Program-made: the position numbers and the translations under genes
Assembly (NCBI RefSeq): GCF_963675165.1
Contig: NC_087382.1
Location: forward strand, 1,240,001 to 1,304,000
Reading direction: 5' to 3'
Origin: Halichondria panicea
Lineage: Eukaryota > Porifera > Demospongiae > Suberitida > Halichondriidae
DNA: 64,000 nt
In this document: positions 6,645 through 27,153 of the stretch, piece by piece
Numbering within the stretch: the stretch's first letter is position 1
How the letters are laid out: every line of letters starts with the position of its first letter
Notes under the pieces: generated by a model
Database searches by the model: none
Seen by the model: the letters and a program-made list of their open reading frames with translations, nothing else
Told to the model about the DNA's origin: nothing

Positions 6645-6662
6645 GTGAGTGAGTCCACACTA

Positions 6663-6840
6663 CTGTAATTTTCGGGGGACAAAATATTCGTGGTTCAGCA
6701 ATATCTAAACATTTTGTGGATAATATTTTTGTGATTGCACTGCAGGTAAAGGTAGGCAAGGTCGCTTCATTTGTGAGTAAATATTCGTTTAGAGCTCCAA
6801 CCATGAAAACCACGAATATTTTGTCCCTCAGAAATTACCA
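6663..6840. mobile_element. MITE with about 29-bp terminal inverted repeats
   Basis: The left end TAATTTTCGGGGGACAAAAT (6665 on) is matched in inverse by ACCACGAATATTTTGTCCCT ending near 6839, with about 26 of 29 bases paired. It has no coding capacity. It shares its CGAAAATT-type end with the hairpin at 5594-5650, so the two are probably related. Confidence 0.65.
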
Positions 6841-7059
6841 GCTATATACGGTATATACTTACGTAACAACAAACTGGACACCCAAGCGTGGGTGTGGTGG
6901 GGTGTGGCTATTAATCTTCTATCTGATGATCGATAATTATTAGCTCTTACAGACTATCATGCGTAATCAAGGTTTTTGGTAATCATTTGTCAATCGTAAC
7001 ACAAAATCAGAGTTTAAAATTAATGTGCAGCAAATTATTATTATTTGGGAAATCTACTG

Positions 7060-8418
7060 TCACTCATGGCCCTTGCCTATACACTTACATCGCTGACAAA
7101 CATGATCTCGTACTGTTAGAGTTAGAAAGTCTCTTGGAGGTCTTGGCGACACATACCTGTGAGCTGCCCATGGGTTGGTGATAGCTTCCTGTGCACTGTC
7201 CCCCTCTAGTCGATTCACTGTGTGGCCACATCTGGTGCAGATTGTATGTGTACACAAGGTTTTATTCTCTGTATCACTAAGTTCTATTTCCATTTCAGGC
7301 ATGGGCCACTCTAGTTGGTGGTCGTGTTCACTATTCTTTAAGTATACAGTGCTATTATCTTGTCCATCAATATCCACGTACATTTTATAGCCAGGCTTGA
7401 TGTAGAACGAAGCTGATCGAGCTCTATCCTCTGATTCTTTAACTAGTGGTAGGTAGTATCGTGTGTCACCTGGTGCTAGCATTGTGGTCATTGTCTCTAG
7501 AGAGCTTTTTATGTTATCGATAGCTGCTTGTGTCTGAGGGTTAGAATCGATAGTGCCTAGTTGCTTAGTTACACAAGATGCTAGGCTATCAAATTTGAGT
7601 GAGAGTTGCTGTAGCTGATCTTTGGTAAACTTAGCTTCGTGTTTAATTGCTTCTCTTTCAGCATTCGCTGTCTGCTTAAATGTGTTAGCCTCCAGTTCTA
7701 GTTTGTTAGCTTTCTGCTTAAGTGTAACAGTCTCTGTCATCATTAGCTCCAAATGGTGCTCTGTGTTTGATGCTTTATGTACTGTCAGATCGTTTCGTGG
7801 AATCAATTCTGTACACCCAGCTTCAAAGAAGGTACACTTCACTGGCTCAAGAGGGCACACCTTCTGGTGACCTGCTAAGTTCTTGCGCTGTATTTTCTCA
7901 TGCCCACAATTGTTGGGGCAAGAAATTGGGAAAAAATGACATTTTTTAAAGTGACTTTTGTTTCTTATTTCTGTATACATCACCACTTCTTTGCAATATT
8001 GGCATTGTACCCGACGGTTTAGGCACCTGTTGTCTTCGTGATCTTGAAGCTTTTTTCGTAGAATTCTTTCTCCACATTTCTTAGTGCATGATACCACTAC
8101 AAACAAGCATTTCTCGAGATGTTGATTTCGTTCACCCAGTCCAGTGATTTTGTCACACCCCTTGGAGCAATTAGGACAGTACATCTTCAAGCTGTCGATG
8201 GCTCGTTTCATTCGTTTATCTTTCATAAAATTGAAGTTGGCCTTTCGACAATGTGGGCATGTTTTTTGTCTCTTTAGCCAATTTTTTATACAGCCACCAC
8301 AAAAGTGTTGTCCGCAGCAACCAGTCAGTACTGGGTCCATTAGAACGTTAGTGCAAATAGTGCAGTGATGATCTTCCGGTACTTTGTCTACAAACTTGTT
8401 TTTAACTGCACTAGCCAT
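7060..8418 (-). CDS. RING/TRAF-like protein, copy A
   Basis: An intronless 452-residue ORF. A C3HC4-type RING lies at about 19-60 (CTIC...CCGQHFCGGC...CPHC). TRAF-type zinc fingers follow at about 85-220 (CTKKCG...LQDHE; CPNNCGHEKIQRK; CTFFEAGC...HKASNTEHH). Next are heptad repeats of KANKLE/KQTAN type (about 235-290, probable coiled coil). The C-terminal domain (about 320-440) contains FYIKPGYKMYV, HDHQLEWPMPEMEIEL and a late DFLTLTV, which resembles a divergent MATH/TRAF-C fold. TRAFs are cytosolic adaptors and E3 ligases downstream of TNF/IL-1/Toll-type receptors; whether this protein works so is inference. The ATG at 8418 directly precedes the conserved FVDKVPEDH. The gene lies antisense in the LARP7 intron. 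Confidence 0.85.
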   Translation of the reverse strand: MASAVKNKFVDKVPEDHHCTICTNVLMDPVLTGCCGQHFCGGCIKNWLKRQKTCPHCRKANFNFMKDKRMKRAIDSLKMYCPNCSKGCDKITGLGERNQHLEKCLFVVVSCTKKCGERILRKKLQDHEDNRCLNRRVQCQYCKEVVMYTEIRNKSHFKKCHFFPISCPNNCGHEKIQRKNLAGHQKVCPLEPVKCTFFEAGCTELIPRNDLTVHKASNTEHHLELMMTETVTLKQKANKLELEANTFKQTANAEREAIKHEAKFTKDQLQQLSLKFDSLASCVTKQLGTIDSNPQTQAAIDNIKSSLETMTTMLAPGDTRYYLPLVKESEDRARSASFYIKPGYKMYVDIDGQDNSTVYLKNSEHDHQLEWPMPEMEIELSDTENKTLCTHTICTRCGHTVNRLEGDSAQEAITNPWAAHRYVSPRPPRDFLTLTVRDHVCQRCKCIGKGHE

Positions 8419-9524
8419 AATTATTGCTCTAAATAGTATCGAACAGCTATTAGCCTAATAGCTAGTAGCTACACGTATAACACGTACTAAACGTTTCAAC
8501 TTTAAATTTTCAGTTTGGTTGAACAGGCCTCATGCAAATGTTTGATGTTAATTGATGCTCATGCAGTTTGCATGTGCATATATATATATATATATATATA
8601 GGCTGGGGAGTCATGTGTTGACCCCTATTGCATTGTTCTATTCTAAGAAGTGAGATATTGTCTCTATTGTTGATGTATAATTATGTATGAACAATGGCGT
8701 ACCATAAATGTATGGCCATGCAGTCATGTGATGTTAGAGTGGCTTATATACTGTAGTAGCTCTGACCCTAAGGACTTATCATAGCAACAGCGAATAGTGG
8801 GGACTGTGTCTTATTTATATTTCTAGTGAAAATCCTAAGGTGTGTGCCGTATACATGCATACATGTGTACAATTGGTGGTGTTCCTATAAGCAAATATTA
8901 CTCTCTATATTAATTACAGTCAGGTTAATATAATAGGCCCCAAGGTTTCCACAGCATAATGTTAATTATTGCACCTGTTTTGGTATAATATAGGCCACCT
9001 CTGTAGTACCGAGGAGGTACGACAGGCGCAGTGCAGCTCAAGCAATTAGTCTTTGATTGAGTACTAATTATCCCCCCGCCCACGTCGTATATGTTTTGCT
9101 ATGTGTAATCAGAGGCTAATTGCTTGAGCTGCACCGCGCCTGTCGGACCTCCTCTGTTTGTAGTATATAATCACTGTTGCACTGCATGCTAACCGGTTTC
9201 ACTGTATATAAATTATATAGTGACTGTGGTAAAGTAAAGTAAGGGAAGAATTCAACTTGATTTGTGCAATATAAGGTGTAGTATATACTTTACAGTGATT
9301 CTAGAGAATGAACTGGACACCATACAAATAGGTGTGACCGGGGTGTGGCTTTTAAGTTTAAGGGCTATATAGTTATTGTAGAAACACAATTATTATTTTG
9401 ACATGTCCAATTATGAGGTGATACATGCATAGTATCAATTGTTATAGTAATATATACATGCATGCATCATGTATACATGCATATATATGCATCATGTATA
9501 ATAGTTTTGAACATCTCTTGTCAC
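8419..9524. other. Spacer upstream of copy A: conserved 5' block and a foldback repeat
   Basis: A (TA)n run lies at about 8578-8600. A block near 8620-8830 (TGATGTTAGAGTGGCTTATA, then TAGCTCTGACCCTAAGGACT) recurs upstream of copies B and C and in weaker form upstream of H. A foldback repeat at about 9010-9161 pairs GGCGCAGTGCAGCTCAAGCA with its near complement. No gene is seen. Confidence 0.6.
9010..9161. mobile_element. Foldback element, about 50-bp arms
   Basis: The left arm (ACCGAGGAGGTACGACAGGC and on, to CAATTAGTCTTTGAT) pairs with the right arm ending GCGCCTGTCGGACCTCCTCT. The spacer is about 55 bp. There is no ORF. Confidence 0.65.
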
Positions 9525-10820
9525 TCATAGTGGTTTGTATCGCTTACAAAGGTGCTCCGTCACCATGAGGAATACAAAGTCTCTTACGACCTCAAGTGCA
9601 GCATACTCGTCAAGTGTCGCGCGCTGTGGGTTGATAGGTGTGCCAAACGTTTCTAGTGTCTCTCGGGCTGGGTTAGTGATATCTTGCTTTGTTCTGTCCC
9701 CCTCTAGTCGGTTCACTGCTCGGCCACATTCGGTGCAGATTGTTGCTCTATACAGGATTTTGTTCTCCTTAGTACGGAGTTCAATTTCCATTTCAGGCAT
9801 AGGCCACTTTAGTTGGTGATCGTATTCACCTTTCTCCAAGTATACAGTGCAATTATCTTGTCCATCAATGCTCACATACATTTTATAGCCAGGCTTGATG
9901 TAGAACGAAGCTGATCGAGCTTTATACTCTGACTCTTTAACTAGTGGTAGGTAGTATCGTGTGTCACCTGGTGCTAGCATTGTGGTCATTGTCTCTAGAG
10001 AGCTTTTGATGTTTTTGACAGCTGCTTGTGTATTTTGAGGGTTAGAATCAATGATGCCTAGTTGCTTAGTTACACAATATGTTAGGCCATTAAACTTGCG
10101 TGAGAGTTGCTCTAATTTTGTTGCCTTTTGCACAGTGTGAATCATCATTAGCTCCAAGTGGTGCTCTGTGTTTGATGCTTTATGTGCTGCCAAATCTTTT
10201 CTTGGGATCAATTCCGTACACCCAGCTTCAAAGAAAGGACACTTCACTGGCTCAAGAGGGCACACCTTCTGGTGATCTGCTAATTTCTTGCGCTGTATTT
10301 TCTCATGCCCACAACTGTTGGGGCAAAAAATCGGAAATAATTGACATTTGTCTATGTGACTATTTGCTGTTATTTCTTTGTGCATCCCCTCTGTGTTGCA
10401 ATATTTACATTTTACCAGACGGTTTAGGCAATTGTCCTCGTGATCTTGAAGCTCTTTTCTAAGCATTCTTTCACCACATTTCTTAGTGCATGATACCTCC
10501 ACAAACAAACATTTCTCGAGATGTTGATTGCATTCACTCAGTGTAGTGATTTTGTCACACCCCTTGGAGCGATTAGGACAGTAGATCTTCAAGCTATCGA
10601 TGGCTTGTTTCATTTGTAGATCTTTTATAAAACGGGAATTGGCATTTTGACAATGTGGGCACGTCCTCTGTTTCTTTAGCCAATTTTTTAAACAGCCGTT
10701 ACAAAACGGTTGCCCACAGCAACCAGTCAGTACTGGGTCCGTTAGAATGTTAGTGCAAAGAGTGCACTGATGATCCTCCGGTACTTTGTCTACAAATTCG
10801 TAATTAACTGGACTAGCCAT
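9525..10820 (-). CDS. RING/TRAF-like protein, copy B (RING His replaced)
   Basis: An intronless 431-residue paralog of copy A with the same order: RING, TRAF zinc fingers, short coiled coil, MATH-like C-terminal domain (FYIKPGYKMYV, YDHQLKWPMPEMEIEL). The RING reads CTLC...CCGQPFCNGC...CPHC, so the His present in copies A, C and E is Pro here. This may weaken zinc site 2 and any E3 activity. The coiled coil is shorter than in A, because the KANKLE heptads are mostly missing. The 5' flank shares the conserved block with copies A and C. The start is chosen at MASPVNYEFVDKVPEDHQ, as in its paralogs. Confidence 0.85.
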   Translation of the reverse strand: MASPVNYEFVDKVPEDHQCTLCTNILTDPVLTGCCGQPFCNGCLKNWLKKQRTCPHCQNANSRFIKDLQMKQAIDSLKIYCPNRSKGCDKITTLSECNQHLEKCLFVEVSCTKKCGERMLRKELQDHEDNCLNRLVKCKYCNTEGMHKEITANSHIDKCQLFPIFCPNSCGHEKIQRKKLADHQKVCPLEPVKCPFFEAGCTELIPRKDLAAHKASNTEHHLELMMIHTVQKATKLEQLSRKFNGLTYCVTKQLGIIDSNPQNTQAAVKNIKSSLETMTTMLAPGDTRYYLPLVKESEYKARSASFYIKPGYKMYVSIDGQDNCTVYLEKGEYDHQLKWPMPEMEIELRTKENKILYRATICTECGRAVNRLEGDRTKQDITNPARETLETFGTPINPQRATLDEYAALEVVRDFVFLMVTEHLCKRYKPL

Positions 10821-11889
10821 TGCTCTAACAGCAATTCTGTGTCTTCTAGTGTTTGTTGTGCTCAGACACGCCCACTATTGCTCAGAAGTGGGCGTGTGTG
10901 AGACTGTCTCTATTGTTATTCATGTGTTAATTGTTATCACTTCAAATAAGTGCATGAATAATGGCGTACCATAATTGTTATGGCCAAGCAGTCATGTGAT
11001 GTTAGAGTGGCTTATACTGTAGTAGCTCTGACCCTAAGGACTTTTTATTAGCATATAGCGGGGCTGTGTCTTATTTGGTTTAGTGAGTATCGTTATATTC
11101 TCTCATGGTGTTATTTGGTGGGCACCAACCTCATCAAAAATTATATATAGGTGTCGTTTTGTAGTTTCATGAGATACTCCGAGGCTGTCGAAAACATCAA
11201 CGATCCTCTACACATTCCGACCATTATTTGGGGGTTTCACGGGTGTGGCTGGGGTCAAAATGTGGTCAGTCGGTGAGAACTTGTTGCAGAAAACATTAGG
11301 TTTTATCTAGTCGGGGGAAGGGGGTGAACCTTCCCCCCCCCCAAATGTCCACCTTCCCTCCAACGAATAATAACATCATCAATATTTATTAACCCAATTG
11401 TACGTACATGTAACCTATAACCATAGTTATAAGTAAAAAGTAGAATCTCTGCACTATAGATACATATGTGACAGGCTCTGGGAAAAGGGCCCAATTGGCG
11501 CAAAGCTATAATTTTTGCGATCTATATAACAGATGATAGAGCAAAGAGTTGCCTACGCATTGATATGCTTAGTGTGCACATACCTCGTTCCATGCCTGAG
11601 TTATGCGCGTTGGAAACTCGAAGCTGTAAAACAGCTAATATCTGCTCCAATTGGTTCTTTTCCCACATATAATAGGGGGTGTGGTCAACAAAGTGAGTGT
11701 GTGCATGGCCCCAACAATAATTGTGCCTATCGGAAAAGTTTCTTAATTGTCAATCGTAGAATTATAATTATCGCTTACAAATGTGTCTTGTTAGGAATAC
11801 AAAGTCTCTTGCACTCTGTAACAATATGCCATTCACTGCATGGACACTGACAAGTTATATCTTCTCTTAACATTCTGTCCCCCTCTACT
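10821..11889. other. Spacer upstream of copy B with a TRAF 3'-end remnant
   Basis: A hairpin lies at about 10860-10902 (CAGACACGCCCAC against GTGGGCGTGTGTG). The shared 5' block is near 10940-11110. A C-rich stretch at about 11310-11360 resembles one at 19905-19970. At about 11765-11889 there is a remnant of a TRAF-copy 3' end (GGAATACAAAGTCTCTTGCA; TTCTGTCCCCCTCTACT). It is cut by the element that starts at 11890. Confidence 0.55.
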
Positions 11890-12512
11890 TAGCCTCCTTC
11901 ACCGGCCTTTGAAAGAAGGCCTGCTATCGACTGCTTGCGCATGCGCCAAATTATTGGATTTTTTTCCCGTAAATATTTTTATAATACTATAATATTGGAT
12001 TTTCCCCCCGTAAATATTCCTATAATACTGGATACATCAGAGAAAATATCCTAAAAGTTCATACACAGAGCTATATAGCTAGCTAGCTAGAAACAGAGCT
12101 GTGTAGGTTTGTTGTACTGCTATTTTCTTCTGATAGAATCAGTAGCAGTAGTATAGTAGACTTTCACCAAAGTTAGTGTTAAATGGGCGTGGCCTGTCCA
12201 TATAGGCTCTTATCAGCCGTCACTCCTTTCAGACGATCGTCATCCACACTGTTGCAGGCTGTGAGTTTTTTGTTAACATAGCAGGCTAAGGGTAGCTATC
12301 AGAGAATGCTATCCGATGGGCTAGAAACCTTCAATCGAACTTTCTATCTACTTCCTTCAATCCACTTCCTTTCGTTGTGATGTCATAGTTTTACTGAGCA
12401 TAAACGATGTTATCCAAAGCCCCTAGATACCGGGGGGATATTAGCGCATGCGCAAGCAGTCGATACCAGGCCCAACTTCCCTAGCGGGAAGTGCGGCCTG
12501 GGATCGAGGCTA
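11890..12512. mobile_element. 623-bp TIR/hairpin element with 9-bp target duplication
   Basis: The ends are TAGCCTCCTTCACCGGCC and the inverse of GGCCTGGGATCGAGGCTA. Inner arms share TATCGACTGCTTGCGCATGC. It is flanked by CCCTCTACT at 11881-11889 and again at 12513-12521. A 9-bp duplication is typical of Mutator-like elements. There is no coding capacity. It sits in a TRAF remnant. Confidence 0.85.
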
Positions 12513-12638
12513 CCCTCTACTTTGCTTCCGGTTTATATAATAGACTGGCCATCGTGTAAAAATCATAATGGGTGTGGCTATGAAAGAAATAAAGATAAGA
12601 TACGTATAAATTGTACAGTCTCTATATGCAATGGTCAG

Positions 12639-13964
12639 TCAGAAAGTTTTTCTGTTAAGAGACATAAACATTGCTTCCTCACAGTCATGGGGTCTTACTG
12701 TAAGGAATACAAAATCTAAGTCTTTTTGAACCCCTTTTTGAATTACCCTTCCTACTCTAGGTTGTCGTGGGTTGATACATTGCTGTGTTTTATCACCCTT
12801 TAATTGGTTCACTGTGAGATCACAAACGGCGCAGATTGTTACTCCACACAGGTCCACTTTATTATGGAGTTTAATTTCCAATTCAGGCATAGGCCACTTT
12901 AGTTGGTGATCATGTTCACCTTTCTCCAAGTATACAGTGCAATTATCGTGACTATCAATGTTCACATACATTTTATAGCCAGGCTTGATGTAGAACGAAG
13001 CTGATCGAGCTCTATACTCTGACACTTTAACTAGTGGTAGGTAATATTGTGTGTCACCTGGTGCTAGCATTGTGGTCATTGTCTCTAGAGAGCTTTTGAT
13101 GTTGTTGATAGCTGCTTGTGTACATGTATTTCGAGGGTTAGAACCAATGGTGCCTAGTTGCTTAGTTACACAAGATGCTAGGCCATCAAATTTGACTGAT
13201 AGTTGCTGTAGTCGATCTTTGGTAGTCCTTCCCTCCTGCTTGAGTGAAACAGTCTCTGTCATCATTAGCTCCAGGTGGTGCTCTGTGTTTGATGCTTTAT
13301 GTGCTGCCAGATCTTTTCGTACAACTATTTCGCTACACCCAGCTTCAAAGAAAGGACACTTGACTGGCTCAAGAGGGCACACCATCTGGTGACCTGCTAA
13401 TTTCGTACGCTGTACTTTTTCATGTCCACAATTGTTGGGGCAAGAAATAGGAAAACCTGAGCAACTGTCTAAATGACTTGTGGCTGTTACTTCTTTGTAC
13501 ATAACGTCTGTGTTGCAATACTGACATTTTATCAGACGGTTTGGGCACTTGTTGTCCTCGTGATCTTGAAGCTCTTTTCGAAAAATTTTTTTTCCACATT
13601 TCTTTGTGCATGATACCTCCACAAACAAGCATTTCTCGAGATGTTGATTGCATTCACCGAGTGTAGTAATTTTGTCACATCCCTTGGAGCGATTAGGACA
13701 GTAGATCTTCAAGCTATCGATTGCTCGTTTCATTCGTAGATTTTTCATACATTGGAAATTGTCGGTTTGACAATGTGGGCATGTTTTCTTTCTCCTTAGC
13801 CAATTTTTCAAACAGCCATTACAAAAATGTTGTCCGCAGCAACCAGTCAGTACTGGGTCCGTTAGAATGTTAGTGCAGATAGTGCAGTGATGATCTTCCG
13901 GTACTTTGTCTACAAACTCGTAATTAGCTGGACTAGCCATTGCTCTAATCGTATCATGTAGCAA
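12639..13964 (-). CDS. RING/TRAF-like protein, copy C
   Basis: A 441-residue intronless paralog with a complete RING (CTIC...CCGQHFCNGC...CPHC). It has TRAF zinc fingers, a short coiled coil (SLKQEGRTTKDRLQQLSVKF) and the MATH-like domain (FYIKPGYKMYV, HDHQLKWPMPELEIKL, late LDFVFLTV). Paralogs begin at the second Met (MASPANYEFVDK), so the real start is probably eight residues in, at about 13940. Of the array members, C keeps the most conventional RING ligands together with intact zinc fingers, so it is a good candidate for a working protein. Role in TNF/Toll-type signalling is family-based inference. Confidence 0.85.
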   Translation of the reverse strand: MLHDTIRAMASPANYEFVDKVPEDHHCTICTNILTDPVLTGCCGQHFCNGCLKNWLRRKKTCPHCQTDNFQCMKNLRMKRAIDSLKIYCPNRSKGCDKITTLGECNQHLEKCLFVEVSCTKKCGKKIFRKELQDHEDNKCPNRLIKCQYCNTDVMYKEVTATSHLDSCSGFPISCPNNCGHEKVQRTKLAGHQMVCPLEPVKCPFFEAGCSEIVVRKDLAAHKASNTEHHLELMMTETVSLKQEGRTTKDRLQQLSVKFDGLASCVTKQLGTIGSNPRNTCTQAAINNIKSSLETMTTMLAPGDTQYYLPLVKVSEYRARSASFYIKPGYKMYVNIDSHDNCTVYLEKGEHDHQLKWPMPELEIKLHNKVDLCGVTICAVCDLTVNQLKGDKTQQCINPRQPRVGRVIQKGVQKDLDFVFLTVRPHDCEEAMFMSLNRKTF

Positions 13965-14588
13965 TTAATTCTGTGACTACTATAGTGTTTGTTTGTGGTG
14001 CTCGGACATATGCACCCACTATTGCTCAGAAGTGGGCGGGTCTGGGACTGTCTGTATTGTTATTCATGTGTTGTTGTCAAGAACTATGTGCATAAACAAT
14101 GCCATGAAATCATGTGATGTTAGAGTGGACCTTTTAAAGGATTTATCGTAATTATAGCAGGATATAGTCGGACTGTATCTTATTTATTGAGTGGGTATCG
14201 TTATATTCTCACATGTTTGTGGCTAGCGAGTCATGTGTGCATGCAGTTACAGATTATCAAGCTTTCACCATGCAGGTTCTGGGTTGGTGATATCTTAGCC
14301 TCGATCCCAGCCCCTCTCACTAGATGGCCTGGTAACCACCGTTTGCACGTGGGTGGATTCAATAGTAAATTTTGTTAGTGAAACTCTTTGGAATTTATCA
14401 ATTAACCTTTTAATCAATTTGTATTAACCTCTCGTTTAAACGCCCCCTTTACAGACTTCGATATGAAATAAACGCCCGGGCGTTTAATCAGGTACATACA
14501 GTAGTCTTACATACAGATTGACACTCGAGTTCACAAAAGAAAAGAAATTATACGTACATTTTATCAAGTTCAGTCTGTGCATAAAGTA
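13965..14588. other. Spacer between copies C and D
   Basis: It holds the shared TRAF 5' block (TCATGTGATGTTAGAGTGG near 14111) and a hairpin related to that of copy B (near 14010-14040). A fragment of a TRAF 3' end (GGTTCTGGGTTGGTGATATC, about 14275) abuts a partial TAGCCTCGATCCCAG element end at about 14300. Confidence 0.55.
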
Positions 14589-15888
14589 TCAAATTAAAAT
14601 ATCAGCTTCACAAAATAGGTGGAGTTTTACTCTAAGGAATACAAAACGTAAGTCTTTTTGAACCCCTCCTACTCTATGTGGCCCTGGGGTGATTTCTTGC
14701 TGTATTATGTCACCCTTTAATTGGTTCACTGTGATACTACAATAGGTGCAGATTATTTCATTACACAGGATTTTATTTTCTTTATCACAGAGTTCAATTT
14801 CCATTTCAGGCATAGGCCACTTTAGCTGGTGATCGTGTTCACCTTTCTCCAAGAAGACCTTGCAATTATCGTGTCCGTTAATCTCCACGTGCATTTTATA
14901 GCCAGGCTTGATGTAGATCGAAGCTGATCGAGCAAAATGTGACCCTTTAACTAGTGGTAGGTAGTATTGTGTGTCACCTGGTGCTAGCATTGTGGTCATT
15001 GTCTCTAGAGAGCTTTTGATGTTATCAATAGCTGCTTGTGTTGTTGGAGGGTTAGAATCAATGGTGCATAGTTGCTTAGTTACACAAGATGCTAGGCCAT
15101 CAAATTTGAGTGAGAGTTGCTGTAGCTGATTTTTTGTAGACTTAGCCTCGAGTTTCATTGCTTCTCTTTCAGCGTTTGCTGTCTGCTTAAATTTGTTAAG
15201 TCTCTGTCATCACTAGCTCCAGGTGGTGCTCTGTGTTTGATGCTTTATGTGCTGCCAGATCTTTTCTTGGAATCATTTCCGTACACCCAGCTTCAAAGAA
15301 GGGACACTGTACTGGCTCAAGAGGACACACCTTCTGGTGATCTGCTAAGTTCCTGCGCTGTATTTTTTCATGCCCACAATTGTTGGGGCAAGAAATAGGA
15401 AAACCTGAGCAATTTTCTACATGACTTTTGGCTGTTATTTCTTTGTGCATCCCTTCTGTTTCGCAATACTGACAATGTACCAAACGGTTTGTGCACTTGT
15501 TGTCCTCGTGATCTTTAAGCTCTTTTCGTAGTTTTTTTTCTCCACATTTCTTAGTGCGTGATACCTCCACAAACAAACATTTCTCGAGATGTTGATTGCA
15601 TTCACTCAGTGTAGTGATTTTGTCACATCCCTTGGAGTGATTAGGACAGTAGATCTTCAAGCTATTGATGATTCGTTTCATTCGTTTATTTACTATATAA
15701 TGGAAGTAGGCCGCTCGACAATGTGGGCATGTTTTCTTTCTCCTGAGCCACTTCTTTACACAGCCACCACAAAACAGTTGTCCGCAACATTCGGTCAATA
15801 CTGGGTCCGTTAGAATGTTAGTGCAAATAGTGCACTGATGATCTTCTGGTAGTTTGTCTACAAACTTGTAATTAACTGGTCTAGCCAT
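14589..15888 (-). pseudogene. RING/TRAF-like copy D, frameshifted in the coiled coil
   Basis: It is read as two frames. 15888-15196 holds the RING and zinc fingers, and 15158-14589 holds the MATH-like domain (IYIKPGYKMHV, HDHQLKWPMPEMEIEL). The break is at about 15190-15200, where copies A and G carry heptads of KANxxE type. Copy D has lost about 44 bp between two similar heptads, so VMTET runs into TAA. Deletion between short repeats by slippage explains this. The RING reads CCGQLFC, with Leu in place of the His of copy A, and one zinc-finger Cys appears changed (VSRTKKCG for VSCTKKCG). A truncated RING/zinc-finger protein could still be made. Confidence 0.75.
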
Positions 15889-16908: not shown

Positions 16909-18183
16909 TTATTGTAGAAAAGTAATGTCAACATAGAAATCTAAGTCCGAAGATATCAGAGAATATATGAAACCTGTTAGCTTAAGTTCTCTTCCTGAGT
17001 CACATCGTATGGTATTTGTTTTTTTAAGGTCGTTTAAGGAACACGAGAATGGTCGTCCTGTTGTAGGCTGTACTTTAATAGATAGTTTCTCAGGGTAACC
17101 GTGGATATCGCTTTTCTCTAGCAGAAGACGATAATTTAAGGTTCCTTTCCATGCACTTCTACTAACTCCAAGGTAGATTATGAATCCTGGGTATACGCAT
17201 AGTGGTGGAGAACTGGCTATTATGGATGTGTTTCGTAGTGACTTTTCTGGATCCTCGAATAATCCCAGTTTATCAGTTATATGTACGCAGTGAGTCTTGC
17301 CATTAGGTTGTATCATTGTGGTTAGGGAGGTTAGTATTGTTTTAATACCATTCATTGGTTTCGTATCAGTTGGGGAAATGTCCATTGAACTAAACCCTGT
17401 TGATACAACTGAAACAAGCGTGTCAAAGTCTCGTTTTAGTTCCTTATTCTCTCTCTTAACACGAGCTAGAGCTGTATTAGCAGTAACCATAGTTGTCATG
17501 GTAAGTCGGAGATGGTTTTGCATGCTAGACGCTTCATGGTCCGAGATATTTTTACGAGGCAGCCTCACTTCACAACCAGCCTCTTTAAAGGGACAATCCA
17601 CAATCTCAAGTGGACACTCTTTTCTGTGCTCTTCGATGTCTTTTCTCTTTAATTTCTCGTTGCATTTGTTAGGGCATGCTACGATGACGTTAGGGCAAGT
17701 TCGTTTGTGCCTTCCAACTATTCGACAATGCTTGCCCTCTTCGTTACAAAGCTCACAGTGCACTATTCTATTAGGACACTCTTGTTTGCAATGATGTTCG
17801 AGGTCTTTTCTTAGCAATCTGGCTGTATCGCAATTGTTGGTGCATTTAACGTATCCAAACGTACATTCGTTCACGTGCTTCGGGAAATCTCCATAACTGA
17901 TGAGTACTTTACACCCGTTGTCACGATTCGTACAATACACACCCAACTGTTTGATTTCTCTGATTATCGGCTGGGAAACGATCTTATTGAAGTTTTCTGC
18001 TCGACACTGGGGGCAAATTGTTGCCTTTTTTTTTGTGATCCACTTTTCCAGACAGGCTTTGCAAAAATGCTGTCCACAGCACTCAGTTAGAACTGGTGTG
18101 TCTAGAAGGTTAGTACAAATACTACACTTGTACTTATCAGCTAACTCTTTGACAAACACTGGCTCTGGATTAGGAGTAGCCAT
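16909..18183 (-). CDS. Divergent RING/TRAF-like protein, copy E
   Basis: An intronless 424-residue ORF with a canonical-looking RING (CSICTNLLDTPVLTECCGQHFC...CPQC). The TRAF zinc fingers keep the family spacing (CTNNCD...LEHHC; CPNKCNEKLKRKD; CPFKEAGCE). A heptad region follows (ARVKRENKELKRDFDTL). The C-terminal half (about 300-424) is much less like the other copies. It keeps YPGFIIYLGV and a late LDFYVDITFLQ, which fit the first and last strands of a MATH-like fold. It has no close twin in the array and its RING His is intact, so it may be the older member. Its codons and length are otherwise similar to its neighbours. Confidence 0.85.
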   Translation of the reverse strand: MATPNPEPVFVKELADKYKCSICTNLLDTPVLTECCGQHFCKACLEKWITKKKATICPQCRAENFNKIVSQPIIREIKQLGVYCTNRDNGCKVLISYGDFPKHVNECTFGYVKCTNNCDTARLLRKDLEHHCKQECPNRIVHCELCNEEGKHCRIVGRHKRTCPNVIVACPNKCNEKLKRKDIEEHRKECPLEIVDCPFKEAGCEVRLPRKNISDHEASSMQNHLRLTMTTMVTANTALARVKRENKELKRDFDTLVSVVSTGFSSMDISPTDTKPMNGIKTILTSLTTMIQPNGKTHCVHITDKLGLFEDPEKSLRNTSIIASSPPLCVYPGFIIYLGVSRSAWKGTLNYRLLLEKSDIHGYPEKLSIKVQPTTGRPFSCSLNDLKKTNTIRCDSGRELKLTGFIYSLISSDLDFYVDITFLQ

Positions 18184-18429
18184 AATAGCTATACTGTTCT
18201 TTTGTTAGTTTCAACTTCAGTGTGTATATAAGGTCAATCGTAATGACCACAAAATGTGCAATATACTATTTATAGTTCTCCCTAAAAAGGCATGAAATGC
18301 ATGTACTTCCTTACAACTATAAGGTTTAAACATTGAAGAATAGTTTTTGCTTGTGTGCATGAACATTATGTTAAGGGCGGTTTGCATATAATTACTCGAA
18401 GAGCTCGTAGGTGGCCACGGGTATAGTAT

Positions 18430-19315
18430 AGAGTAAGGCATCTATATTCAGACACAATGCATGTTCAGACACTCATTCTGAGGAAACAAGCAGTAATAAA
18501 AAATTTTCTTTTGCACCATCTGATCAAGCATGTGTTACTATGAATGTATGCAAAAAAGAATTGATAAATATCAACTACTAAGTCTTCAAGAGCTGAAAAT
18601 GTGCTAGTGTCTGATAAACGGTAAGAACAGACAAAAAAATCGATCATCAGACACAACCTACCGTTTTTTCTGTAGGGGGATATGCTGAGAGTCACATAGT
18701 AATTATGTAAGGACAATAACTAAACAATAAAACCCCCAAAGTTGGAGTTGCAAAACGCTTGTATGTCCATGCAGCGATTATTTCTGCTGAGTCACTCGCC
18801 TATCAATAATCAGACATAAAATGAGGTCAAAGGTCAAATGTTCTTGGCATCCCACGCAAATTGGGTCAAAGGTCAAATGTTTTAGTGTATGTGGATGCCA
18901 GTGACATTTGACCTTTGACCCCATTTGCTGTCTGATCATTGATACGCGAGTGACTCAGCAGAAATAATTGCTGCATGGACATACAAGCGTTTTGCAACTC
19001 CAACTTTGGGGGTTTTATTGTTTAGTTATTGTCCTTACATAATTACTATGTGACTCTCAGCATATCCCCCTACAGAAGAAACGGTAGGTTGTGTCTGATG
19101 ATCGATTTTTTTGTCTGTTCTTATATACCGTTTATCAGACACTAGCACATTTTCAGCTCTTGAAGACTTAGTAGTTGATATTTATCAATTCTTTTTTGCA
19201 TACATTCATATAGTAACACATGCTTGATCAGATGGTGCAAAAGTTTATCACTGCTTGTTTCCTTAGAATGAGTGTCTGAACATACATTGTGTCTGAATAT
19301 AGATGCCTTACTCTA
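18430..19315. mobile_element. 886-bp near-perfect palindrome (about 430-bp arms)
   Basis: The left arm begins TAGAGTAAGGCATCTATATT and the right arm ends AATATAGATGCCTTACTCTA. Between them almost every stretch of 18430-18850 reappears inverted in 18900-19315, with a few mismatches and small indels. The ORF at 18465-18716 (-) lies within one arm. It has no transposase. Both ends show TA, which would fit a TA-target element, but no longer duplication is seen. Confidence 0.9.
18824..18921. promoter_or_regulatory. Three DR1-type nuclear-receptor half-site pairs
   Basis: AGGTCAAAGGTCA lies at 18824-18836, GGGTCAAAGGTCA at 18863-18875 and the inverse TGACCTTTGACCC at 18909-18921. The first is a perfect DR1. 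In animals DR1 sites are bound by HNF4/RXR-type (NR2) receptors, and sponges have NR2-like receptors. Function here is untested. Confidence 0.4.
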
Positions 19316-19489
19316 GTCGTCTGGTTTGTCTGCATGTCTGTTTGTAATTTGTGAGCCTGCTCACCTGGATTCCATAGCCGGTACGTTTACAGCATCGATA
19401 TAGCCTTCACACAACAAGTTATTAGTTTTAATAGTGGTAGATTTTGATGTCAAAGCTTCGTTCTCGAATAAAAGTGAGTAAAAGCGAAC

Positions 19490-20096
19490 TTGCTTCTGTT
19501 AACTTTGAAGCTCTTTTCGTAACATTCTTTCTCCACATTTCTTAGTGCATGATACAAACAAGCATTTCTCGAGATGTTGATTTTGTTAACCCAGTGTAGT
19601 GATTTTTTCACAACTCTTGGAGCGATTAGGACAGTAGGTTCTCAAGCTGTTGATGACTCGTTTCATTCGTTTATCTTTGAAGTTGACTTTTCGACAATGT
19701 CAGCACGTTTTTTGTCTCTTGAGCCATTTTTTTAGACAGCCACCATTATAAAACAGTTGTCCACAATTAACATCCAGTCAGTACTGGGTTTGTTAGAATG
19801 TTAGTGCAAATAGTACAGTGATGATCTTCCGGTGCTTCGTCTACAAACTCATTTTAACTGTGCTATAGCCATTACTCTAATTCTATAAAACAACAATGTT
19901 GTCAGGGTTTCATCTAGTGGGGGGGGGCTGTGGTGAACCTTCCCCCCCCAAAATGCTCATCTTCCCCCCCAAACTTAATTTAAGTTGCTCTAATTTGTTA
20001 GCCTTTTGCAACAGTGTGAGTCATCACTATAGCTCCAGGTGGTGCTCTGTGTTTGATGCTTTATGTGCTGCCAGATCTTTTCTTGGAATCAATCAA
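19490..20096 (-). pseudogene. RING/TRAF-like copy F, fragments
   Basis: 19497-19885 matches the N-terminal part of the TRAF-like genes (RING and first zinc finger; conserved GTGATGATCTTCCGGTGCTT near the start). It has frameshifts and an altered start region. 19980-20096 matches only the coiled coil to zinc-finger junction (AGCTCCAGGTGGTGCTCTGT). No open frame covers either piece. A C-rich stretch lies between them. Confidence 0.75.
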
Positions 20097-20609
20097 TGTC
20101 AAAGCAGAGACAAGTACACGGATCTATCTAGCCAGCATTTTGATATTATAGATCCTTGTACCACAGTGTCTGTTGTGCCACAACATGCATGTATTAGCAT
20201 GGAACAGCTGATGAACGTATAGTAATCTTGGCAGTCCTTCTTTAATGGGTGGCAGCGATTTTAAGACAGCTTGTACAAGTCTGACAACTACTCTGTGACT
20301 TTCTCAATTCAACTGCTGCCCTCTGCCATTATCTGTCTTGTATTGTACAGGTTATCAAAAGCCTTGCATGGGCAACCTTTAATTGGTTGTTTTTCTCTTG
20401 GCAATTTTTCGCATTGCAAATGTTTTTGTGGGTCTTAATAATTATTATTATACATGTAGGTTTGCTGTAGAATGCAATCCTATGGTGACTGTGTGTAAAG
20501 TAACACTGGTCAGTACAACGCTATAATTACTGAACATGCATGGTACTGACTTAATTTATATAACATAATTATGTCAGAAAGTCTCAAATTCATGTACCAT
20601 ACATGTATG
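20097..20609. other. Spacer, nothing recognised
   Basis: AT-rich sequence between TRAF-like fragments F and G. No domain-bearing ORF or clear inverted repeat is seen. Confidence 0.4.
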
Positions 20610-21905
20610 TGTATGGCTTTTTATTGTAAGGAAAAAAAACTCTTTCAGAACCTCTCCTATTAGTATTCTAGGTAGCCTTGGGTTGATAATTTACTGTGTA
20701 CTGTCCCCCTCTAGTCGGTTCATGGTGTAGCCACATCTGGTGCAGATTGTTTCACTATACAGGGTTTTATTCTCTGCATTGCTGAGTTTAATTTTCATTT
20801 CAGGAATGGGCCGCTTTAGTTGGTGATCGTGTTTGCATTTCTCTAGTATACCCAGCAAACATCGTGTCCATCAGTGCCCATGCACATACATTTTGTAGCC
20901 AGGCTTGATGAAAAACGAAGCTGATCGAGCTTTATATACTCTGACTCTTTAACTAGTGGTAGGTAGTATCGTGTGTCACCTGGTGCTAGCATTGTGGTCA
21001 TTGTGTCTAGAGAGCTTTTGGTGTTCTTGATAGCTGCTCGTGTATTTCGAGTGTTAGAATCGATGGTGCCTAGTTGCTTAGTTACACAAGATAATAGCTA
21101 GGCCATCAAACTTGCGTGAAAGTTGCTGTAGTTGATCTTTGGTAGACTTAGCCTCGAGTTTCATTGCTTTTCTTTCAGCTTCTGTCTCTTGCTCAAATTT
21201 GTTTGCTTTTTGCTCAAACCGGTTAGCTTTCTGCTTAAGCGTAACAGTCTCAGTCATCACTAGCTCCAGGTGGTGCTCTGTGTTTGATGCTTTATGTGCT
21301 GCCAGATTTTTTCGTGGAATCATTTCCGTATACACCCATGCAGCTTCAAGAAGGGACACCTCGCTGTTTCAAGAGAGCACACCTTCTGGTGATCTGCTAA
21401 CTTACAGCGTTGTACTTTCTCATGCCCACAATTGTTGGGGCAAGAAATTGGGAAAAAGTACATTTGTCTAAGTGACTATTCGCTATTATTTCTTTGTGCA
21501 TCCCCTCTGTTTTGCAATACTGACATTGTACCAAACGGTTTGGGCACTTGTTGTCTTTGTGATCTTGAAGCTCTTTTCGTAGCATTCTTTCTTCACATTT
21601 CTTAGTGCATGTTACCTCCACAAAGAAGCATTTCTCGAGATGTTGATTGCATTCACCGAGTGTAGTGATTTTGTCACAACCCTTGGAGCGATTAGGACAG
21701 TAGATCTTCAAGCTATCGATGGCTCGTTTCATTCGTTTATTTACCATAAAATGGAGGTTGGTCTCTCGACAATGTGGGCATGTCCTTTGCCTCTGTAGCC
21801 AATTTTTTAGACAGCCATTGCAAAACAGTTGTCCACAGCAACCAGTCAGTACTGGTAGAATCTCTGTGCAAATAGTGCAACGATGATCTTCTGGCCCCTC
21901 TTCAA
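20610..21905 (-). pseudogene. RING/TRAF-like copy G, multiply broken
   Basis: It is full length but broken. The RING at about 21750-21900 reads GCCGQLFCNGC, with Leu replacing His. The zinc fingers are open at 21747-21397 (KGCDKITTLGECNQHLEKC). The coiled coil is open at 21359-21078, with three KANRFEQ/KANKFEQ heptads. The MATH-like domain at about 20640-21060 has no long open frame. Small indels break the frame near 21060-21110, near 21350-21400 and near 20850-20890. The start region differs from the intact copies. Confidence 0.8.
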
Positions 21906-23361
21906 TTTTAGTAGAATATGCCTTCCTATAAACAGCTAGGTTTCACTGCATATATATTTCTAATGACTGCATGTATATATATAAGTAGCAATTGATTAGC
22001 AAAATAACTTGGCGAATGCTTGTCTGATAAAGTGCAGTACCAATAACTAGACACTAAATAAAGTGGGTGTGCTGAGGTGTGGTTAACTTATGCATGAATG
22101 CGATAAATTATTAAGTATTATAAAAATATTTACACAATAAGATATACGTGTCAATTTAATAAGGTTCTGGTAATCAATCTAGTATAACACAACATCAGGG
22201 CTGTGGATAAAATTAATGTATATATACATGTGCATATAATACCGTAGAAACTGGATTATAAGTGCATGTGCTTTTGGGGTCAATAGCAGAGCTCTATGCG
22301 CTATATATTCGAGGATGTGCCTATAATGCAGTCATTCGAGCCCCATGTGCCCAGCAATCTCGGATGTCTCTGTGATGAGTGCTGACTCGCAAGCTAGCTA
22401 GAAAGTGAGCAAGCAAGGAAAGCAGGCAACCCTAACTGGATCTATATCATGTTACAGTTCATTCACATCATTGAAATTCATATTATAAAAACATTTATAT
22501 TGACCAGGAACTTGGAATAAAAGGACCTCATCCACGTCTCACATTCTCTCAGTATGATCAGACAAGGTAACAGCATGCCCAGAGAGTCTTTCCAGATGGA
22601 TATCACCAGCTATATAGCTATCCTGCACTGTACAAGATAACTAGCTCATAGATAGATGAATCAATTCTAAAATTTCACTAATAACCAAAGCACTTCAATT
22701 TGAGTATAAAAAGCTTGCAGTTGAGCATGCGCTTAAAATAAAGATACGCTTATAGTCGAGTAAGCGCTAATAATCCAGTTTCTACGGTATAGCTATTGTG
22801 CTGGGCAGAGAGTCTCCTGTCACTCAGCATGGATGTAGTAGTCTATTGATTAAAAAAATGTGATTTTTGACTGTCAGGAACACATAATTATAGTCTCTTG
22901 TTGCAGCTCCTGCATGGCGAATAAAAGTTAACCAGAAGTTGCATGGTGATAGTTTCCCATTGTCTCTCTCCCTCGTGTTACTCATCTAGCTCTTTGACGG
23001 CTGCAAAATCAGGCATATAGTCTTGCTTTTTTTTCAGTCTGCATTGTGGATTGAATTGTTGCTAGGGGAGGTCCTTTTATAGTGCTGTGGTATAAGTCAG
23101 ATATGCCACACCTACTTAGGATATGCACCCATATTATATTCTCATATATAGGTGTTGTATATTCTATACCAAACAGACAAACCAAACGGCTACTATAATC
23201 TCGGGTTAATATCGTATGAACTATAATAAATATTCTCAAGACACAACACAATATGATATATATATAGCAGTATCAATCAAGGTTCTGGTAATCATTCGTA
23301 GCATAATTATACTAACACAAAATCAGGGTTGTGGTAAAATAATGCATACATAATAATTATG
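21906..23361. other. Spacer between copies G and H
   Basis: It contains the TIR element 22240-22789. The rest is AT-rich with no recognisable gene. The ORF at 23009-23251 (-) shows no domain. Confidence 0.5.
22240..22789. mobile_element. 550-bp MITE with 22-bp terminal inverted repeats
   Basis: The left end TACCGTAGAAACTGGATTAT is inverted at the right end as ATAATCCAGTTTCTACGGTA. There is no coding capacity. It lies in the LARP7 intron. Confidence 0.8.
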
Positions 23362-24669
23362 TCAATTGAAAAGTCTCGCGCCACTCCGACTTGTAACACT
23401 ATATAGCTTACAAATGTGCTTCTGTATTGTCAGGAATACAAAGTCTCTTGGATCCTCTCTAATAACAAAACTTTCACCAGGTTCTGGGTTGGTGATATCT
23501 CTTCTTAATATTTTGTCTCCCTCTATTTGGTTCACTGTGTGGCCACATCTGATGCAGATTGTTTCTTTATACAACGTTTTATTCTCTGTAGTGCTGAGTA
23601 CAATTTCCAATTCAGGCATAGGCCACTTTATTTGATAATCGTGTTCACTTTTCTCTAAGTATATCCAGCATTTCGTGGTATTGATACTTTGCACATACAT
23701 TTTATAGCCAGGCTTGATGTAGAACGAAGCTGATCGAGCTATTTCAGGTACTTCCTCTGACTCTTTAAATAGTGGTAGGTAGTATCGTGTATCACCTGGT
23801 GCTAGCATTGTGGTCATTGTCACTAGAGAGCTTTTGATGTTTTTAATAGCTTCTTGTGTTCGAGGGTCAGAATCGATAGTACCTAGTTGCTTAGTTACAC
23901 AAGATGCTAGAGCATCAAATTTGAATGTGAGTTGCTCTAACTTCATTTCGTATTTCTTAGCCTTAAGTTTAGACCGAGCAGTTTCTGTCATCACTAGCTC
24001 CAGGTGGCGATCTTTGTTTGATGCTTTATGTGCTGCCAAATTCTTTCGTAAAATTGTTTTTGTGCACCCAGCTTCAAAGAAGAGACACTTTACAGGCTCA
24101 AGAGGGCACACCTTTTGGTGGCGTGCTAAGTTTTTGCGCTGCATTTGCTCATGTTCACAATTGTTGGGGCAAGAAATAGGAAAAAGCAGACATTTGTCTA
24201 AGTGACTTTTAGCTGTTATTTCTTTGTGCATCACATCTCTGTTGCAATACTGACATGGTACCCGGCGATTTGGGCACTTGTTTTCCTCGTTATCTTGAAG
24301 GTCTTTTCTAAGCATTTTTTCTCCACATTTCTTAGTGCATGATACCACTACAAACAAGCATTTCTCAATATGTCGATTGCATTCACCCTGTGTGGTGATT
24401 TTTTCACAACCCTTGGAGCGATTAGGACAGTAGATCTTCCAGTTATCGATGACTCGTTTCATTCGTTTATCTTTAATAAACTTGAAGTTGACTTCTTGGC
24501 AATGTGGGCATTTCTTCTGTCTCTGTAATATTAGCCAATCTGTTAAACAGCCCTCACAAAAGAGTTTCCCACAACACTCAATCAGTACTGGGTTTGTTAG
24601 AATATGTGTGCAAAGAGTGCAGTAATGATCTTCCGGTACTATATCTATTATACTAACTGAACTAGCCAT
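23362..24669 (-). CDS. RING/TRAF-like protein, copy H (RING His replaced)
   Basis: An intronless 435-residue ORF: RING (CTLC...CCGKLFCEGC...CPHC), TRAF zinc fingers (CTKKCGEKMLRKD; CPNNCEHEQMQRK; CLFFEAGC), a Lys-rich heptad region and the MATH-like domain (FYIKPGYKMYV, HDYQIKWPMPELEIVL, late RDFVFLTI). The His of copies A, C and E is Leu. A two-residue insertion lies before the last RING Cys pair (LILQRQKKCPHC). The 5' flank (24820-25010) carries the same block as copies A to C (ATGTGATGTC; CCTATTATAGCAACAG). Intact by frame, so probably expressed or recently lost. Confidence 0.83.
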   Translation of the reverse strand: MASSVSIIDIVPEDHYCTLCTHILTNPVLIECCGKLFCEGCLTDWLILQRQKKCPHCQEVNFKFIKDKRMKRVIDNWKIYCPNRSKGCEKITTQGECNRHIEKCLFVVVSCTKKCGEKMLRKDLQDNEENKCPNRRVPCQYCNRDVMHKEITAKSHLDKCLLFPISCPNNCEHEQMQRKNLARHQKVCPLEPVKCLFFEAGCTKTILRKNLAAHKASNKDRHLELVMTETARSKLKAKKYEMKLEQLTFKFDALASCVTKQLGTIDSDPRTQEAIKNIKSSLVTMTTMLAPGDTRYYLPLFKESEEVPEIARSASFYIKPGYKMYVQSINTTKCWIYLEKSEHDYQIKWPMPELEIVLSTTENKTLYKETICIRCGHTVNQIEGDKILRRDITNPEPGESFVIREDPRDFVFLTIQKHICKLYSVTSRSGARLFN

Positions 24670-25360
24670 TGCTCAAAGAATAATTCTGTATCTTCTTTAT
24701 GCTATAGGTTATAGTCATGCATGTAGTAAAGGTTCTTTACCTTTAGGCTTTTATAGGTATACGTGGCCTCGTGGAATATTTGATGTAAAAGATCAGTGCG
24801 TGCATGTGCACTAACATGTGATTATGAGTTGAGATTGTGTCCATGACAATGGTACCATATGGCCATGCAGTCATGCATGTGATGTCTTAAACTGTAGTAA
24901 TTAACTCTAACCTTTTAAAGGACCTATTATAGCAACAGCAAATAGTGAGACTGTGTCTTATTTGGTTAAGTGAGTACCGTTATGTTCTCATATGGTGTTG
25001 TTTAGCGAGTCATGTGTGCAGTTATTATTATTCTGCCCTGAGGCGTAGCCGCACGAGGGATATATACGGAGCTAGGATGCTGACTGTGTGTGTGTCTGTT
25101 CCATGCAGCTGTATATAACTGCATGCTAAACGGTTGCAATGCGACAAAAACTAACAGCTTCTATATGAAAACATTAATTTCACAACTTGAGCATAGTTTA
25201 CAGAATTATGCCAGCAAATGAGCTTAACAGTGCATGACATCGCAGACAAATCTATCTGTGAAAATATATCACCTATACTAATACAAAATCAGTGTAATAT
25301 AGTAGTGCAGCATAATTGTGTCTGTCAGAAAGCCTCAAATTCATTTACAATACATGTATG
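24670..25360. other. Spacer upstream of copy H with the shared 5' block
   Basis: The block at about 24860-25020 is alignable to the upstream regions of copies B and C. The rest is AT-rich, with no gene recognised. Confidence 0.5.
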
Positions 25361-26178
25361 TAAATGGTTTTTTATTGTAAGGAATAAAAAATCGTTTAGA
25401 ACCCCTCCTATTTGTATTGTAGGTTGCCACATCTGGTGCATGCAGATTATATACACAGGGTATTATTCTCTGCATTGCTGAGTTCAATTTTCATAGGCCA
25501 CTTTAGTTGGTGATCGTGTTCACCTTTCTCCAAGTATATCGTGCAATTATCATGACTATCTAGGTCCACATACATTTTATAGCCAGGCTTGATGTAGAAC
25601 AAAGCTGATTGAGCTTTATACTCTGACTATTTAACTAGTGGTATAGGTAGTATCGTGTGTTACCTGGTGCTAGTCATTGTCTCTAGAGAGCTTTTGATGT
25701 TCTTGATAGCTGCATGCTCGTGTATTTCGAGTGTTAGAATCGATGGTGCCTAGTTGCTTAGTTACACAAGATACTAGCTAGGCCATCAAACTTGCGTGAA
25801 AGTTGCTGTAGTTGATCTTTGGTATAGACTTAGCCTCGAGTTTTATTGCTTTTTTTTCACCTTCTGTCTCTTGCTCAAATTTGTTTGCTTTTTGCTCAAA
25901 TTTGTTAGCCTTCTGCGCACAACAGTCTCTGTCATCATTAGCTCCAGGTGGTGCTCTGTGTTTGATGCTTTATGTGCTGCCAGATCTTTTCTAGGAATCG
26001 TTTCTGTACACCCAGCTTCAAAGGAGGGACACTTTGCCAATTTTTTAGACAGCCATCACAAAAAATTGTCCACAACATTCGGTCAGTACTGGGTCTGTTA
26101 GAATGTTAGTGCAAATAGTGCACTGATGATCTTCCGGTACTTTGTCTACAAACTCATTATTCAATGTACTAGCCATTG
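25361..26178 (-). pseudogene. RING/TRAF-like copy I, internally deleted
   Basis: The start and first RING residues are at about 26178-26045 (FVDKVPEDHQ, CTIC). There is then a direct jump from the RING (GTCCACAACATTCGG) to the last zinc finger (GAAGCTGGGTGTACAGAAAC, 26020). The RING remainder and first zinc fingers, about 450 bp, are deleted. The coiled coil (25850-25920) and MATH-like domain (25440-25790) carry stops and indels. No long frame remains. Confidence 0.8.
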
Positions 26179-27153
26179 CTCTAATTATCAAACAGCATAC
26201 TTTAATATAGGTATACATGTGCATGTGCTAGAGGTTATCTCCCTTGCTTTTACTGTGGTTGTATAGAAGCTTCAAGTATTTGTGTACATATAGGCTGTGG
26301 AATCATGTGATGTGTGGTTATTATATAGGGATACAATGAAAAAAGTAGTATTCTCTTGATAGGGTTTAGCAGTACAATACATTGTCATGTTATTATGCCT
26401 TGGTGCGCATGCGCAAGAGAGGTATATATACTTTAGTGTGTGCGTGTGCATGTGTGTGTGTGTGTGTATGCATGTGTCTGTGTCTGTGTAGACTGCTATA
26501 GGCTGTTCAATTAAGGATCAATGAAGTGCAGCAAGTAAGAGTTTCTATAGTCATGTTTCTTGGATTTCAATTCGTGGATTTGCAAAATAATGCTTATTTC
26601 TCGAGTTAAGCCTGGTTTTGCATACTTGAAATGTCATTGCAACCTTTTCAGAAGAATTCGTAGAAAAACTTGTCCATGGAGTGTTACTACTCTACTTATA
26701 GTAGCTAGTTAGCTCTGCACTAGGTATTCGTAGCTGCAAGAGTGAAGAGAGCTGCAATTAGGCTCTGCTGATGCCAACATTAATTTTAGACTTTGACTTT
26801 TGGCATCAATCCCTTTTAACAACAATCATGGTCGATCATTACCCACACTCTTTGAGTTTCTGGATTTACCTATATAGTTATATATTATTACATGCAGCAA
26901 AAAAAAAGCAAAATGTTCATCATGATTATAGCGTGTATAAAAGCTCTTGCCAATATAGCCATAGCTTTGACACTTCTACCGAGGTATCAGCACACTTTCA
27001 TTATTAAACATTGTTCTCTATAATGTTATAATTAAGGTGCCTAATTAATATGCTCTAGCATACGTAGTTTCAGGTGTCCATTGAAAATTTTGTGCATGTG
27101 CATATAATTATGGATGAACTAGTCCACCAAGAAATTCAAACTACCCCATGCAG
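26179..27153. other. End of the LARP7 intron
   Basis: It holds a TG-rich stretch (about 26430-26490) and AT-rich DNA. The ORF at 26771-27007 (+) has no recognisable domain. The 3' splice site is at 27151-27153. Confidence 0.5.

Follow-up and report, generated by a model that had tools for sequence, protein, structure and literature searches.

Nested intronic genes are common in animals. In the available parts of the papers cited here, to which our comparisons with them are limited, such genes were surveyed in Hormiphora and 1,058 eukaryote genomes, with a share of 12.24% of exonic bases in Hormiphora (PMC8527503). Several homologous genes can share one intron, as in insects, where the last intron of CG18675 holds the TipE cluster and an intron of Flo-2 holds GMC oxidoreductases (PMC3240667). 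LRRTM genes are nested antisense in alpha-catenin introns, and their host is missing in some lineages (PMC3933685). In tetrapods, an intron of LARP7 hosts the antisense miR-302/367 cluster, which is absent from the LARP7 of lamprey, coelacanth and ray-finned fish (PMC7564603). TRAF-like domains have been reported as enriched in two species called SC and AQ (PMC4772301). Here we describe the LARP7 gene of the sponge Halichondria panicea, analysed in a window of 64,000 nucleotides (nt) at C6:1240001-1304000 (contig NC_087382.1) of a genome of 131 Mb in 39 contigs; positions without a contig name are those of the window. This gene hosts two nests, a sulfotransferase gene in intron 2 and, in intron 11, an array of antisense TRAF-like genes. 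Judged on sequence, the doubly occupied LARP7 is likely to be a tolerated birth-and-death nursery of TRAF-like signalling genes, and not a designed regulatory unit.

The host was identified from its assembled protein, which matched the Pfam models La (3e-20), RRM_1 (1.6e-15) and RRM_3 (1.7e-9). In the PDB, the best match was human LARP7 (7slp_B, 1.6e-31) and the best match other than LARP7 reached 1.1e-11; the match to the La protein (3.5e-11) was far behind. The protein has an RRM1 and a C-terminal xRRM, and its best match is LARP7, not La. A six-frame search with PF08777 (xRRM) gave no match, the xRRM being split over several exons, and the assembled protein does match. No 7SK was found by an Rfam search in which no control matched either.

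LARP7 is predicted to consist of 13 coding exons over about 30 kb and to begin upstream of the window, which corrects the gene model. An exon ending in ...SKKLQNQ, at about C6:1237951, fits exon 1. Exon 2 (C6:1238872-1238949, plus strand), upstream of the window, holds the first half of the La motif, which is above the Pfam cut-off alone; the second half (2204-2293, in exon 3 at 2207-2308) is below it alone, and it was the joining of the two halves that gave the La match of 3e-20. All exons in the window are on the plus strand. Pfam matches also covered exons 3, 4 (2693-2859) and 5 (3547-3634), the latter two encoding RRM1, and exons 9 (4858-5032), 10 (6377-6436) and 11 (6551-6644), with the xRRM starting in exon 9. 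Exons 6 (3700-3819), 7 (3920-4169) and 8 (4497-4662) lie between them. Exons 12 (27154-27251) and 13 (27453-27614, including the stop codon) were found by genome search and Pfam as well. Intron 2 is 3,256 nt and intron 11 is 20,509 nt long; nine others (introns 3-10 and 12) measure 65-1344 nt. A single-exon sulfotransferase gene (61-1617; Pfam Sulfotransfer_1, 1.9e-12) sits between the two La-motif exons on the plus strand, which is the host strand. The La motif is split over the intron that holds this gene. With intron 11 counted as well, LARP7 is a double host.

Intron 11 (6645-27153, plus strand, phase 1) begins after the end of exon 11 at 6644, with the donor ACCAG/gtgagt, and ends before the start of exon 12 at 27154, with the acceptor atgcag/ATGCTG; the reading frame is continuous to the stop codon at 27612-27614. 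The original prediction, made from the letters of the window alone, was that LARP7 exons flank this interval in phase, and the GT-AG sites, the phase and the frame bear this out. It also held that these exons continue the protein from the xRRM to its C-terminal tail. With exons 12-13 added, the RRM_3 match covered profile positions 2-94 instead of 2-60, with a gain of only 1.7 bits; the C-terminal stretch alone matched human LARP7 with an i-Evalue of 0.23. Support for exons 12-13 from their own matches is modest, and stronger support comes from the phase, the splice sites and a second locus described below. In the human LARP7 xRRM, helix alpha-3 contacts 7SK and helix alpha-4 interacts with MePCE (PMC10083321); exon 12 and the start of exon 13 align to this C-terminal alpha-3/alpha-4 part. 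Near 27555, the window copy of exon 13 is without nine bases (protein SERVPP vs SD-P). This loss is probably recent in the window copy, because the bases are kept in three of four extra copies of the LARP7 tail and at the decayed second locus.

Nine TRAF-like copies or pieces, five open and four broken, were mapped in intron 11, all on the minus strand, as expected from the prediction of at least nine opposite-strand intronless copies or pieces in this 20.5-kb intron. The open reading frames (ORFs) encode proteins of 424-452 amino acids: T1 (7060-8418, 452 amino acids), T2 (9525-10820, 431), T3 (12639-13940, 433), T5 (16909-18183, 424) and T8 (23362-24669, 435). T5 belongs to another subfamily, with relatives at C6:838-918 kb. 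The broken copies are T4 (14589-15888, with a frame break near 15200), T6 (19502-19850, a fragment of the RING part), T7 (20590-21930, in several frames) and T9 (25390-26180, with an internal gap); a TRAF-like scrap was also seen at about 20030-20092. The ORFs and pieces span 7060-26180, wholly inside 6645-27153, and judged on the ORFs they are nested intronic genes. The intron also contains a near-perfect palindromic element of 887 nt (18429-19315, no strand assigned). The idea that it was special to the array was rejected, as it has matches on nine contigs; this genome-wide repeat is probably MITE-like (MITE, miniature inverted-repeat transposable element).

TRAF-type zinc fingers were detected with the zf-TRAF model in all five open copies (E-values 4.4e-17 to 9.4e-24), and the best PDB matches of the TRAF-like profile were TRAF5 (2.9e-21) and TRAF6 (1.1e-15). 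RING models matched the same five copies more weakly than zf-TRAF, and the RING cysteines C19, C22, C34, C35, C40, C43, C54 and C57 are invariant among them. The position of the RING histidine corresponds to residue 37 of T3, and is Q or K in the array copies and aligned relatives; the RING of the array copies may be inactive or may use another ligand. The TRAF-mep_MATH model matched three of the five open copies, all below its cut-off (best 18.7 bits vs 27.4), and scored 20.3 bits in the broken T4 (cut-off 27.4). An AlphaFold model of T3 had a mean predicted local distance difference test (pLDDT) score of 54.7, which fell below 50 from residue 232, covering most of a long helix, and contained no usable C-terminal domain. 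The ratio of nonsynonymous to synonymous substitution rates (dN/dS, NG86) was 0.35-0.57 for T1, T2, T3 and T8 among themselves and with nine outside relatives. Together with the higher YN00 ratios given below, this suggests purifying but loose selection on the TRAF-like copies. In the alignment of these thirteen sequences, fourfold sites were least different at codons about 301-330 (0.054 vs 0.089-0.54 elsewhere), which may reflect either a conversion tract or a constraint at the DNA level.

A second locus was found one megabase away, around C6:2228-2244 kb. Its order is exon 1, exon 2, sulfotransferase, one TRAF-like gene, exon 12, three TRAF-like genes and exon 13. The LARP7 remnants and the sulfotransferase are on the plus strand and the TRAF-like genes on the minus strand, with the order and strand of LARP7 as in the window. 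DNA identity was 83% in the exon 1 region, 81% in exon 2, 83% in part of exon 12 and 85% in part of exon 13 (80 bases). Exon 2 keeps its splice sites, and the frame is broken in exons 2, 12 and 13. These three exons scored 70, 64 and 50 bits, against maxima of 24, 25 and 30 in a control of 20 shuffles of six-base blocks, exon 1 lying outside the tested stretch; the scores of exons 3-11 at this locus did not exceed the shuffle maxima. The sulfotransferase is open, with 85% amino acid identity to the window copy, a dN/dS (NG86) of 0.36 and a synonymous distance of 0.22. Of the TRAF-like genes, F1 (423 amino acids) and F2 (440) are open, F3 has a 399-codon frame in which the first ATG leaves 322 amino acids, and F4 is broken. 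Read most simply, the LARP7 locus was duplicated, and in this copy the host decayed and some of the nested genes stayed open. On this reading, both nests were probably in place before that duplication. Window 9007-9156 also resembles DNA of the second locus, but was dismissed as probably repetitive, as it matches another cluster too.

Several explanations of the locus were weighed. The original prediction offered a scenario in which one TRAF-like mRNA entered the intron as a reverse-transcribed copy and later multiplied in tandem, which fits an array of intronless copies. We consider the retro-copy quite improbable as the founding event. The family is large: a search with T1 returned 104 matches (94 of 533 candidates scored) and a search with zf-TRAF 150 (150 of 677 candidates scored), giving at least as many members by each measure. 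The nine best of the 104 T1 matches, T1 included, are all in open frames of 433-472 codons, so the intron-bearing parent expected of a retro-copy was not found among them. Since the best relatives of T1 are also single-exon, the intronless copies need no reverse transcription. A tree of 30 sequences (H_847901 was dropped from a first tree of 31 rows) rejected all nine array copies as one clade (p-AU, approximately unbiased test, 1.2e-29), and T5 grouped with the cluster at C6:838-918 kb, 340-420 kb away, with a support of 100/100. The other eight copies as one clade were not rejected (p-AU 0.349), and one founder is possible for them, as a retro-copy would require. The prediction of a single family therefore held for eight copies and failed for T5, which is a second lineage. 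A scan of viral contigs found no relatives of T3.

Upstream DNA was informative on the same question. T5 and several relatives of the C6:838-918 kb cluster share CCTTTTTAGG and CTATAAATAG-like motifs upstream of the ATG; at T5 (18184-18300), as in several of these relatives, CCTTTTTAGG, which we take to be of CArG type, stands beside CTATAAATAG or CTATATTTAG, presumably TATA- or MEF2-like. Another block of upstream DNA, extending as far as about 400 nt from the ATG, occurs at T1, T2, T3 and T8. This block lies at 8684-8816 (minus strand) upstream of T1, is common to T2 (10830-11110, minus strand), T3 and T8, and 39 bases of it are found at F4. In whole-genome searches, in which the numbers of matches are lower bounds, the T2 block matched T1, T3, T8, F4 and a 56-base scrap on C4, and the T1 block matched T2, T8, a 91-base stretch on C4 and 34 bases near F3. 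Because T1, T2, T3 and T8 share these blocks, and because T5 both groups with the C6:838-918 kb cluster and shares its promoter-like upstream DNA, the data point to DNA-level tandem duplication in the intron plus at least one separate arrival, that of T5. The tandem duplication proposed originally is thus retained, and the retro-copied founder is not favoured. Shared DNA that includes TATA-like motifs, stretches beyond them and blocks up to about 400 nt upstream counts against a retro-copy, because an mRNA copy would be expected to be without such DNA where it lies upstream of the transcription start. The copies are too diverged for a poly(A) tract or target-site duplications still to be expected. 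In favour of a retro-copy, the upstream DNA that can be aligned with outside members mostly ends about 60-190 nt from the ATG. A different proposal concerns the host, whose two sides could be separate genes or a misjoin, with LARP7 ending elsewhere and 27154-27614 representing a tail that exists in several duplicates. Window 26473-34015, with exons 12-13, the end of intron 11 and the gene downstream of them, is indeed copied whole or in part to C6:1383, 1410, 1438 and 1473 kb (L027, L028, L029 and L030). Three of these extra tails show 4-7% difference in the intron DNA; their exon 12 differs by 2 of 98 bases, with pieces that encode an unchanged protein sequence, and is interrupted by an insertion in two of the three and uninterrupted at 1438 kb. 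At 1410 kb only exon 13 was found. Despite these copies we regard this proposal as very unlikely. The phase, frame and splice sites of 6644/27154 fit, and the window contains no N bases (0). In a genome search, the xRRM exons were found only at the window's locus and none near the extra tails, and no TRAF-like genes were seen within the stretches read there. The second locus repeats the order of host exons, sulfotransferase and TRAF-like genes, and holds TRAF-like genes between the LARP7 5' and 3' remnants in the same order and strand, which answers in part the worry about misassembly attached to the original prediction. The extra tails do not overturn the predicted LARP7 gene model but will confuse short reads. 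The locus could also be a regulatory device, in which antisense TRAF-like transcription blocks the completion of LARP7 and gives a form without exons 12-13. Intron 11 is located within the xRRM region, and in human genes the presence of a nested gene can lead to intron retention and cryptic polyadenylation (PMC3192792), so that transcriptional interference between LARP7 and the array is possible by analogy. A dedicated device is nevertheless highly improbable in our view, since the second locus has open nested genes but no working host. We would place equally little trust in a wider version, in which LARP7 introns are a recurrent seat of antisense arrays, the transcription of the nest sets the share of LARP7 with the last two exons, and a TRAF-like burst leads to a crippled xRRM and free P-TEFb.

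We therefore hypothesize that LARP7 is a double host and a tolerated nursery. Its intron 2, within the La motif, would shelter the same-strand single-exon sulfotransferase, and intron 11, splitting the xRRM region, the antisense TRAF-like array, whose proteins would combine a RING-like part, TRAF-type zinc fingers and a weakly MATH-like end. Array members would be drawn from a large family with single-exon close members. The array would have grown by tandem duplication of DNA inside the intron, and at least one member, T5, would have come in independently from a different cluster of this chromosome. Each TRAF-like gene, with its own upstream DNA, is most likely transcribed on its own, and LARP7 would be made by splicing out the 20.5-kb intron, as the splice sites, phase and frame suggest. 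By analogy with TRAFs, the TRAF-like proteins may act in signalling. The segment with the locus, nest included, would then have been duplicated to C6:2.23 Mb, where LARP7 decayed and open frames persisted in the sulfotransferase and in at least two TRAF-like genes. Because they stay open there without a working host, the nested genes would not need it.

Several observations weigh against parts of this hypothesis. The 800 nt after the stop codons of T1, T2, T3 and T8 contained neither AATAAA nor ATTAAA, and the 300 nt upstream of T2 and of T3 contained no TATA-like motif. T8 is below the cut-off of every RING model. The column of the TRAF5 RING histidine has Q in the profile, Q or K in nine of nine aligned sequences, and Q in T5. 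Ligase activity of the TRAF-like proteins is unsure because of this atypical RING, in the histidine column and in T8. In the tree, T6 fills only 28% of the columns and the bootstrap was not quite settled. The YN00 ratios were higher than those by NG86, reaching 0.86 for the array and relative pairs and 0.87 for a pair of F copies, so that selection may be loose. At the second locus, exon 12 lies among the TRAF-like genes, with one before and three after it. The synonymous distance (NG86) of T1, T2, T3 and T8 to F1 and F2, in a comparison that left out F3, F4 and the broken copies, was 0.32-0.49. Because this exceeds the 0.22 of the sulfotransferase pair, the F copies would not be simple counterparts of today's array copies: they may descend from TRAF-like copies that were already split, or may have come separately. 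Descent from already-split copies is favoured because F4 shares the upstream block.

Some features outside the nests were also recorded. The insertion in exon 12 of L027 and L030 has matching ends, TCAGGTAGGTTA ... TAACCTACCTGA. The gene downstream of LARP7 (30061-33786) has a weak Chlam_PMP repeat match, and window 39352-40362 resembles part of it. On the minus strand, the stretch 35106-43906 includes two ORFs (37469-38842 and 42122-43906) with common starts, and is probably another local gene family.

In the literature, judged by titles and the starts of abstracts, no description of this array, or of LARP7 as its host, was found, and no TRAF-like array is described in the available part of the survey of Hormiphora and other eukaryotes. 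Precedents exist for antisense nesting, for arrays in one intron, and for guests that survive the loss of their host. What is new here is the start of LARP7 outside the window, the nested sulfotransferase, and a second locus with a decayed host. Within one genome the nest thus exists in two states, its host apparently working at one locus and dead at the other. These two states allow the direct question of whether nested genes depend on their host, and also address how arrays grow in an intron without destroying it; the decayed copy suggests that sheltered genes can outlive the host gene.

As described in the available parts of the sources introduced above, the TipE and GMC clusters resemble the LARP7 array in having several homologous genes in one intron of an unrelated host, CG18675 being described as single-copy. 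Those clusters are conserved across insects with defined members, whereas the LARP7 array has four broken copies among its nine and one from another subfamily. The LRRTM genes share with this locus the antisense nesting and a host that is lost while the nested gene stays. They differ in being one nested gene per host, presumed by their authors to be retrotransposed, whereas here an array appears to have grown by DNA-level copies; and their host is missing in some lineages, whereas here host decay is seen within one genome. The tetrapod miR-302/367 cluster has the same host gene, the antisense orientation and several similar units in common with the sponge array, but consists of microRNAs and not of TRAF-like genes. 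It would be an independent event, because it is absent from the LARP7 of lamprey, coelacanth and ray-finned fish. If it were true that the array affects LARP7 in the sponge, this would be a parallel to the tetrapod arrangement.

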